Below are positions 9,765 to 59,372 of a stretch of DNA of 64,000 nucleotides, piece after piece. The stretch lies in NCBI RefSeq assembly GCF_024518575.1, contig NZ_JANIHG010000006.1:1-64000 (forward strand), read 5' to 3'. Positions within the stretch are counted from its first letter, which is position 1, and every line of letters begins with the position of its first letter. The position numbers and the translations under genes were made by a program. The stretch comes from Methanothrix sp. Its GTDB lineage: Archaea; Halobacteriota; Methanosarcinia; Methanotrichales; Methanotrichaceae. The notes beneath the pieces are model-generated. The model was not told the origin of the DNA. It ran no database searches and saw only the letters and a program-made list of their open reading frames with translations.

Positions 9765-10664
9765 ATGAAGATCCTGATAGCTGAGTATGCGGTCGCCACA
9801 GGCCTTGGCGGAACATACGAGATCGAGGGCAGGGCGATGCTCTCGACGATAGCCCGGAGCTTTGTGAGGTGCGGTCACAGGGTGGTGTATCCAACATCAG
9901 GACCTGTGGTCGATGCCGGCGTCCCTGTCCTTCTCGAGCGGAGCGACCTTAAGGGGTTTCTGAGCACCATCGATGCAGACGCGGGATTGATAGTGGCACC
10001 TGATCCCCTAGCGTCCGATCTCATCAAGGCAGTTGAAAACCGGATGGTCAATCTGGGATCGGACAGTGTAGCAGCCCAGCTGTGCGCTGACAAGCTCGAG
10101 TGCACTCTGACCCTGAAGAGAGCGGGAGTGCCGGTGGCGGATGTTGTCGAATCTCCGGAATGCGGATGCAATGTGTATGTCGTGAAGCCCAGGTATGGTT
10201 GCGGCTCAGATGGTGTCATAATCTCATCATTTCCCAACGCGCCGGAAGGCTACATCGCGACCAGATATCTCGAGGGCGTGCATCTCAGCGTCAGCTTCAT
10301 CCGGGGGAGAGAACGGTTCCTGCCGCTCACGATAAACAGGCAGATTATAGAGATGAATGGCAGCAGGTTTGTATATGCCGGTGGCCAGGTGCCATACAGA
10401 TCCCCGAGGGCGGATGAGATCTGGGAGGTGGCGAGGCGGGCCTCAGATGTGCTTGGATTGAAAGGTTATGCTGGCATCGATCTGGTTGTGGGCGATCTCC
10501 CCAGAGTCGTGGACGTGAATGCGCGCCTCACAACATCGATCGTCGGATGCGCTAAAGTCCTCAAATGGGAGCTGGCCGATCTCATACTCAGGGCGAGCTT
10601 CGGCGGGCTGCCGGAGAGTGTGGAAGTGGATGGGGAGATAACCTTCAGGCTGGATGAGCTCTAG
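9765..10664 (+). CDS. mfnD: ATP-grasp ligase, probably tyramine-L-glutamate ligase MfnD
   Basis: A 299-residue protein with an ATP-grasp fold: an N-terminal Rossmann-like part, the ATP-binding lysine region (NVYVVKPRYGCGSDG), and the metal-binding end (GYAGIDLVVG, then VVDVNARLTTS). Length and layout fit MfnD, which joins glutamate to tyramine in methanofuran synthesis; the specific substrate is inferred, supported by mfnA in the same window. The ATG at 9765 begins the family-like MKILIAEYA; an upstream in-frame start at 9702 would add 21 unlike residues. Its end overlaps the convergent sec61-beta stop by 4 bases. Confidence 0.72.
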   Translation: MKILIAEYAVATGLGGTYEIEGRAMLSTIARSFVRCGHRVVYPTSGPVVDAGVPVLLERSDLKGFLSTIDADAGLIVAPDPLASDLIKAVENRMVNLGSDSVAAQLCADKLECTLTLKRAGVPVADVVESPECGCNVYVVKPRYGCGSDGVIISSFPNAPEGYIATRYLEGVHLSVSFIRGRERFLPLTINRQIIEMNGSRFVYAGGQVPYRSPRADEIWEVARRASDVLGLKGYAGIDLVVGDLPRVVDVNARLTTSIVGCAKVLKWELADLILRASFGGLPESVEVDGEITFRLDEL

Positions 10665-10834
10665 GGCCAGAGCCCGAAGGTTATGTTCAGGGCCATTATC
10701 GCTACGCCAGATGCTATACCAGCGCCCACGACCATCTTCGGGTCGAGCTTTATAGATGTCTCTTCAGACTCGAAGTACCTCATCAGGCCGGCTGACGACA
10801 TCAAGCCCGGCCCCTCGCCTTTCTTCTTTGCCAT
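10661..10834 (-). CDS. Sec61-beta / SecG-like preprotein translocase subunit
   Basis: A 57-residue protein with a charged cytosolic N-terminus (MAKKKGEGPGLMSSAGLMRYF), a conserved proline/glycine-poor linker and one C-terminal membrane helix ending in ALNITFGLWP. This is the archaeal Sec61-beta pattern, the small tail-anchored partner of SecYE. I start it at the ATG at 10834; an in-frame extension upstream reads through an IS-end-like repeat and is not part of the gene. A CTTTAACC element at about 10855-10862 sits where the TATA box should be for a leaderless message. Confidence 0.85.
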   Translation of the reverse strand: MAKKKGEGPGLMSSAGLMRYFESEETSIKLDPKMVVGAGIASGVAIMALNITFGLWP

Positions 10835-10861
10835 GTACGGTCCTCTTACATATCGGTTAAA

Positions 10862-11075
10862 GTGAACGCTCCCCGCCCTGAAGGGCGGAGCTTCTGGGCT
10901 TACAGCCAGAGACTGCGTTCCCAGTCTCATATGTGATAGGTCCCTAGGCGGCACTTAAAGCCTTCCTAGATCACATCCTGGAGGGGAATTAGTCCTCGTG
11001 ATGCATATAGGTATCGCTCCGGGGTATTCGCTCTCATCCTCAGGCGGGGTCTTCCCGCTTCGCCCTCTCCACTCC
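10862..11075 (-). repeat. IS200/IS605 right-end-like hairpin repeat, copy A
   Basis: About 214 bp shared with 16428-16628. In plus-strand order it opens with GTGAACGCTCC, then three successive hairpins: CCGCCCT/AGGGCGG, CTGGGCT/AGCCAG around TAC, and AGACTG/CAGTCT. It ends with a conserved block (CATCCTCAGGCGGGGT, then CGCTTCGCCCT). Read on the minus strand it resembles the right end and guide-RNA (omega RNA) region that follows tnpB in IS200/IS605 elements. No tnpA or tnpB is present. The rest of 11076-11182 holds no gene I can see. Confidence 0.6.
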
Positions 11076-11182
11076 AAAAGGCAAATTTCGGCCAGATTCT
11101 GTTCTTTTGTTCGCAGGATCTCTCCATCGCTCAGGCGGTTAATGGAAATGCCCCTGGATCGAGCGCCTGCGCAGGGTGGTCT

Positions 11183-16248: not shown

Positions 16249-16427
16249 CTACAATCAGCTTCTCAACATGCACAGCGCTCGCGGAGAGCGGGTATCTGCA
16301 ATACAGCAGTTAGTTTTCGTTTTCAGATGCGCCGGCCAGACGTGCTGAGTGGAACTGCTGGGTTCTGAATGAAGAGGGCTGTTGGCTGGATCGCAGAACA
16401 GCCCCCTGATTCGGCGTTAAACAGAAT

Positions 16428-16628
16428 GTGAATGCTCCCAGCCCTGATGGGCGGAGCTTCTGGGCTTACAGCCAGAGACTGCGTTCACAGTCTCATAGTA
16501 ATAGATCCTCAGGCACCACCTTCAAGATCATACCTTGAAGTTGAGCGTCGTGATTTATACTATCGCTCCGAAGGGGGCTTCGCTCTCATCCTCAGGCGGG
16601 GTATTCTCGCTTCGCCCTATTCCATCCC
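16428..16628 (-). repeat. IS200/IS605 right-end-like hairpin repeat, copy B
   Basis: Second copy of the 10862-11075 repeat. The first hairpin has changed on both sides but still pairs (GCCC/GGGC), the second is identical, the third keeps its AGACTG/CAGTCT stem with a different loop, and a fourth stem CTTCAAG/CTTGAAG lies in the variable middle. The distal block CATCCTCAGGCGGGGTATT, then CGCTTCGCCCT, is nearly unchanged. Beyond about 16628 the two copies are unrelated. No transposase gene is adjacent. Confidence 0.6.
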
Positions 16629-16794
16629 TAAAGTTATGATGGAGTCAAATGCTTTGATCTCAGCGATATTAATAATGACCACTTTGATGGTTGAGCATAC
16701 AATGTCAGAGGTTTCGGGACTCTACAATTACGGAAATTACTCCAAATATGGGAGTTTCGCCTTGAACTCATCTATCGCGTTCAGCATCATTTTA

Positions 16795-16911
16795 TGCTGT
16801 GTTGAATAATTAAGAGCTCTAAGGTCGTAAGCTATCGATTTTTTACTAGAATTTCAATTCGTATGAATCCAGCCTCTGCTATCGGATTCTCAAACATTAT
16901 TCAACACAGCA
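16795..16911. mobile_element. MITE copy 1 (117 bp)
   Basis: A short element with perfect 16-bp terminal inverted repeats (TGCTGTGTTGAATAAT at the left, its complement at the right). It is flanked by TCATTTTA on the left and TCATTTTC on the right, an 8-bp target duplication with one mismatch. Copy 2 at 59257-59372 is about 92% identical by my count. It encodes nothing. The parent transposase is not in the window. The remainder of 16249-17311 has no gene I can support. Confidence 0.88.
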
Positions 16912-59256: not shown

Positions 59257-59372
59257 TGCTGTGTTGAATAGTTAAGAGCTCTAAGGTCGATAGCTATTGA
59301 TTTTTACTAGGATTGCAATTCGTATGAATCCAGAATCTGCTATCGGATTCTCAAACATTATTCAACACAGCA
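59257..59372. mobile_element. MITE copy 2 (116 bp)
   Basis: Same element as 16795-16911, about 92% identical (8 substitutions and one indel by my count). Terminal repeats TGCTGTGTTGAATA and complement, 15 of 16 matching; perfect 8-bp target duplication GCGGTGTG. It is inserted 36 bases after gyrA. From 59381 to 59600 no gene is visible. Confidence 0.92.

Follow-up and report, generated by a model that had tools for sequence, protein, structure and literature searches.

An inherited omega-RNA core in a probable non-autonomous IS200/IS605 tnpB derivative from Methanothrix

Introduction

Transposons of the IS200/IS605 type insert at a short motif without duplicating their target. Their accessory nuclease TnpB guides the copy-back of its own insertion sequence at the cleaved empty site, and stand-alone omega RNAs have been reported for IscB. 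Non-autonomous relatives of such elements are represented by the palindrome-associated transposable elements (PATEs) of Haloquadratum walsbyi (PMC3119063). As for the guide RNAs, the omega RNA of ISDra2 has a pseudoknot partner in the loop of its stem 1, the same topology as that described below (PMC10097598), and haloarchaeal sense-overlapping RNAs such as sot0042 are regarded as omega RNAs (PMC12558985).

Here we describe a repeat in Methanothrix sp., analyzed within a window (the whole stretch of DNA under study) of 64,000 nt. Judged from its sequence, it is very probably a PATE- or MITE-like non-autonomous derivative of an IS200/IS605 tnpB element that was probably moved in trans and whose inherited omega-RNA core is mostly decaying.

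Results

A multicopy element that lacks a transposase gene

An earlier note on this DNA had placed a repeat at 10862 to 11075 and pointed to a second copy; both exist (Table 1). The left limit, as judged from the empty site, lies a few bases farther out, so that copy A extends from 10862 to about 11080 on the minus strand. Its left end is at the high coordinate, and its right end, ...GCGTTCAC, is at 10862. Searching the window's genome returned ten full-length, interspersed copies, A and B included, with E values (4e-32 to 2e-120) far beyond chance; the other full copies share 74 to 86% identity with copy A, and there is one additional copy of the right end only. Using a 63-nt query that joins both ends alone, we also found about a dozen short versions of 45 to 63 nt, composed of the left-end and right-end hairpins only. 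No transposase gene is contained in this multicopy element.

Table 1. Coordinates of the element, its parts and its neighbors
Feature	Position in window	Strand	Basis or remark
Sec61-beta (secG), protein-export gene	10661..10834	-	PF03911, E 1.3e-15
Would-be guide, flank TTTAACCGATATGTAAG	10845..10861	-	equals the sequence after TTTAC at empty sites; unique in genome
Copy A, complete non-autonomous IS200/IS605-type element	10862..11080	-	ten full genome copies; empty site in five congeners
Omega-RNA core, homologous to tnpB 3' terminus plus right end	10862..10928	-	covariance model of tnpB-linked loci
Pseudoknot 3' arm CGTTC, right-end tip	10864..10868	-	pseudoknot covarying in tnpB-linked loci
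Hairpin 1, right-end hairpin (CTCCGCCC TTCA GGGCGGGG)	10871..10890	-	also retained in ~60-nt copies
Hairpin 2 (GGC/GCC)	10897..10907	-	
Hairpin 3, stem 1 (GAGACTG/CAGTCTC), loop GGAACG	10909..10928	-	
Pseudoknot 5' arm GAACG, inside stem-1 loop	10916..10920	-	pairs with CGTTC at 10864-10868
Internal segment, ~93 nt	10929..11021	-	contains TATA-like CCTATAT; no structure conserved from copy to copy
Left-end stem-loop region (GGGCGAAGCG...GAGCGAATACCC)	11022..11065	-	also present in short end-only copies and, in relatives, at the left ends that precede tnpB
Copy B of the same element	16425..16633	-	omega-RNA core 16428-16494; site empty in congeners
Resident IS605, intact tnpA, tnpB cut at contig ends	contigs C69, C66, C41, C49, C60 (G000)		loci L041, L036, L037, L039, L203

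Another repeat of the window is a 117-nt MITE (16795-16911 and 59257-59372) with terminal inverted repeats TGCTGTGTTGAATAAT/ATTATTCAACACAGCA. This genome holds about 40 copies of it, mostly 91 to 97% identical, and more diverged copies occur in at least three congeners.

Both ends of the repeat match tnpB elements

The left part of the repeat matches IS200/IS605 left-end stem-loops that lie upstream of tnpB in the same archaeal family, and in related archaea its last 67 nt (about 70) correspond to the end of tnpB (final codons NILRLGxQSL) plus the right end. These matches bear out the suggestion of the earlier note that the repeat has IS200/IS605 ends and that its minus strand resembles the tnpB 3' region serving as guide RNA, the latter through homology to an omega-RNA core. 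Each end carries a near-terminal palindrome, the left-end stem-loop and the right-end hairpin, respectively. The aligned ends differ; terminal inverted repeats were not found, and none of 40 nt or longer was reported in the window. As its sequence shows, the element retains the stem-loop of the left end, a short piece of internal sequence, the last tnpB codons and the right end.

Across 50 genomes of the order, the internal stretch had no convincing match outside the full-length copies of this genome. Scanning named genomes by exact pattern revealed neither the internal motif nor a parent that shares the pseudoknot of the element. We considered the internal segment as a retained tnpB promoter and rejected this idea, its promoter-like similarity to tnpB leaders being weak (P 0.015 to 0.7) and significant for only one of five.

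The window had been described as free of tnpB, which is correct for its entire contig: every PF07282 (tnpB) match in the genome maps to another contig. An orphan status in the strict sense is not supported, the genome having related tnpA/tnpB IS605 copies on other contigs. One intact tnpA lies beside the beginning of a tnpB where a contig stops, and at the ends of other contigs there are four related sequences, each a tnpB 3' end or its right end. Since tnpB is cut at several contig ends, the resident IS605 is probably a multicopy element collapsed by assembly. The proposed genome search for a TnpB with a matching right end turned up related tnpB 3' ends, but no parent in this genome whose ends match exactly. 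A diverged solo right end resembling an omega RNA was seen at G000:C66:39306-39371 (L202), with no tnpB found upstream.

The omega-RNA core is covariation-supported in tnpB-linked loci

The structure of the core was named on 25 distinct right ends linked to tnpB. It comprises stem 1, whose loop forms a pseudoknot with the pentamer preceding the final AC, as well as stem 2 and the right-end hairpin. In this alignment, 96.7% of the cells pair as compared to 77.3% in shuffles, 14 pairs are changed on both sides, and the covariation score is 0.497 versus 0.168. The pseudoknot types include GACUA/UAGUC, GACUU/AAGUC, GAACA/UGUUC, GAAUG/CAUUC, and GAUUG/CAGUC. The omega RNA of the tnpB-linked loci therefore covaries strongly, its pseudoknot included.

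Copy A displays three serial hairpins (7/7, 3/3 and 8/8 pairs) and, with the pseudoknot GAACG/CGUUC, has all 23 pairs intact. Three stacked hairpins had been noticed before, and they are indeed present in the final 67 nt of the minus strand; the pseudoknot had been missed. In the core of copy B, there is one mismatch in the pseudoknot and one in the right-end hairpin. A covariance model (R1), built from the tnpB-linked loci only and leaving out both the pseudoknot and the element copies, found both copies of the window, A with 71.3 bits (E 1.9e-16) and B with 59.6 bits. With Rfam, no match within the element reached the gathering threshold; the 3' end of sot0042 matched the copy A core weakly and below the cut-off (16.7 bits, E 0.026). 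We also considered, and dropped, a fold shared by the copies over the entire 220-nt element, RNAalifold being unconvincing outside the right end and an internal stem being deleted in several copies. Since the omega-RNA core of these TnpB systems fits within the last 67 nt, the element holds a complete-looking core and abuts a would-be guide. Within its own genome, the would-be guide of copy A has no second target with two or fewer mismatches.

Compensatory changes among copies are confined to the right-end hairpin

The earlier note had read a compensatory change (CCGCCCT/AGGGCGG versus GCCC/GGGC) and, from it, selection on RNA structure out of a comparison of hairpin 1 in copies A (CTCCCCGCCCTGAAGGGCGGAG) and B (CTCCCAGCCCTGATGGGCGGAG). 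The compensatory change is rejected, and the selection deduced from it is not supported. The differences, C to A and A to T, fall in different pairs and break each of them (A.G and T.T), and no double change separates the two copies. Among 11 copies, where the power is low, pairing amounted to 92.8% compared with 91.6% in shuffles. Two compensated pairs, one each in the copies L004 and L008, were the only such changes and both reside in the right-end hairpin, whereas nearly every substitution in the RNA-specific helices is disruptive: stem 1 and the pseudoknot have 12 broken cells and no compensated change. Stem 1 and the pseudoknot are both complete in 4/11 copies, and copy A alone keeps every pair.

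As to sequence divergence, the right-end hairpin is the best-conserved part (mean pairwise difference 0.107), and it would also be needed by a DNA transposase. Divergence from stem 1 to stem 2 is lower than in the internal segment (0.156 versus 0.229, P 0.03), a possible hint of constraint, although it is not significantly lower than in the adjacent segment (P 0.22). Overall, the pattern fits a transposon with important ends and a mostly decaying omega core, which in most copies would be decaying cargo. It is also compatible with function in intact copies such as copy A.

The hairpins might instead serve single-stranded DNA recognition by TnpA only, their RNA likeness being incidental. This would agree with the confinement of compensated changes to the right-end hairpin, and with the spread of end-only copies that lack the other hairpins. 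We nonetheless regard it as very unlikely, for the tnpB-linked homologues of the core show covariation in stem 1, the pseudoknot and stem 2, which goes beyond anything the end-only copies keep. A derivative with an inherited core remains our preferred reading.

Empty sites in congeners indicate insertion without target duplication

In five congeners, the site of copy A is devoid of the element: CCGAAATTTAC runs directly into TTTAACCG, the target is not duplicated, and the flank common to all five is CCGAAATTTAC followed by TTTAACCGATATGTAAG. In the window, the left flank ends with CCGAAATTTGC, the element stretches from CTTTTGGAG to GCGTTCAC, and TTTAACCG follows. The site of copy B is likewise without the element in congeners, and TTTATC or a similar motif precedes many other copies. 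The element occupies many sites, with no duplicated target.

Copy A inserted at an ancestral TTTAC site, immediately before the start codon of Sec61-beta. The element probably moved in trans: a Y1 transposase (TnpA) supplied from another locus of the genome would recognize the end hairpins as single-stranded DNA and mobilize the element. That the short copies retain only these end hairpins shows that the omega core is dispensable for spread.

Copy A lies in the apparent promoter region of Sec61-beta

From the right end of copy A to the ATG of Sec61-beta there are 27 nt, and the insertion splits a block conserved upstream of this gene in all five congeners (window 10834-10880), which places the element in an apparent Sec61-beta promoter region. 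The split block resembles an archaeal promoter (CGAAATTTACTTTAA).

This position raises the question of whether sec61-beta has taken over the element as a regulatory leader, its insertion having split the old promoter so that promoter or 5' leader is now supplied by the element. The insertion does fall within the five-congener block (CCGAAATTTACTTTAACC...ATG), with TTCACTTTAA now replacing TTTACTTTAA, and the right ends of two more copies, L007 and L008, also lie 27 nt upstream of same-strand ORFs. However, the element occupies this site in one species only and its other copies are located elsewhere. Moreover, the preference for TTTAC/TTTAT targets, which may steer the element into TATA boxes, accounts for insertion near them with no need for recruitment, making the latter a highly doubtful explanation.

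Could copy A act as a stand-alone guide RNA?

The intact-core copies, copy A above all, might be transcribed and loaded in trans into the TnpB of the resident IS605 as a stand-alone omega RNA, leading to cleavage of the empty site; we think this unlikely. That such cleavage at TTTAC plus flank would in turn let the non-autonomous element be retained, or copied back by recombination, is an equally slim prospect. Several features speak for this scenario. Copy A combines its 23/23 intact pairs with a score of 71 bits against the tnpB-linked omega RNA model, its guide-equivalent flank is identical to the empty sites of five congeners and stands behind TTTAC, and tnpB copies reside in the genome. 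Within its own genome, the would-be guide of copy A has no second target with two or fewer mismatches.

Further support comes from G011, a genome of another genus, in which the left-end leader of the element L196 is joined straight to an omega core, with no tnpB. Two or more sites of G011 (L198 and L199) carry tnpB elements that lost internal parts but kept their left end and omega core. All three are independent internally deleted elements. Derivatives that bear an omega core thus appear again and again, as a core within 67 nt of the right end would lead one to expect. Additional omega cores of G011 were examined and set aside: those at contig ends are cut tnpB loci, and the internal ones are mostly tnpB deletions or remnants.

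On the other side, a core so close to the right end would survive most internal deletions anyway. Stem 1 and the pseudoknot show the decay described above, and the internal segment is promoter-like only weakly. Furthermore, the pseudoknot in the omega RNA of the resident IS605 is of another type (GGCUA/UAGUC), and that of copy A may not be accepted by the resident TnpB. Among the openly accessible papers searched, we found none on stand-alone TnpB omega RNAs or on guide-RNA-bearing PATEs.

Discussion

The element provides a concrete case of an internally deleted IS200/IS605 element that keeps a complete-looking TnpB guide-RNA core next to a would-be guide directed at the empty site of the element itself, and hence a testable case for non-autonomous elements exploiting TnpB in trans. 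If this were true, it would be a transposon without genes that keeps its own guide RNA and borrows TnpB from a resident IS605. Independently of this, the family alignment yields a compact, covariation-supported 67-nt omega-RNA core with a pseudoknot for Methanothrix-type TnpBs.

How does the element relate to described systems? The IS1341/IS605-type tnpB elements of the same archaeal family (for example L063, L107 and L122) share its type of left-end stem-loop, the last tnpB codons, the right end, and the TTTA-type flank; in the present element, by contrast, the tnpB body is gone and about 93 nt separate the ends instead. With the TnpB omega RNA or reRNA of IS200/IS605 (ISDra2, PMC10097598; sotRNA, Rfam RF02656) it has in common a stem-1 loop that pseudoknots with the 3' end of the scaffold, a right-end hairpin beside the guide, and, in homologous loci, the position at the 3' end of tnpB. 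Unlike that RNA, it has no tnpB upstream, and its scaffold core measures only 67 nt and matches Rfam sot0042 below the cut-off. Because no tnpB is attached, the element is no strict member of the tnpB-linked omega RNAs; it contains a homologue of their core. As with the PATEs of H. walsbyi (PMC3119063), terminal inverted repeats are missing, near-terminal palindromes are related to IS605-type ends, the target is not duplicated, the many copies are too short to encode a transposase, and end-only versions of about 50 to 60 bp exist. It departs from PATEs in that its longer version keeps a covariation-supported omega-RNA core, its copies are more diverged, and its host belongs to another archaeal class.
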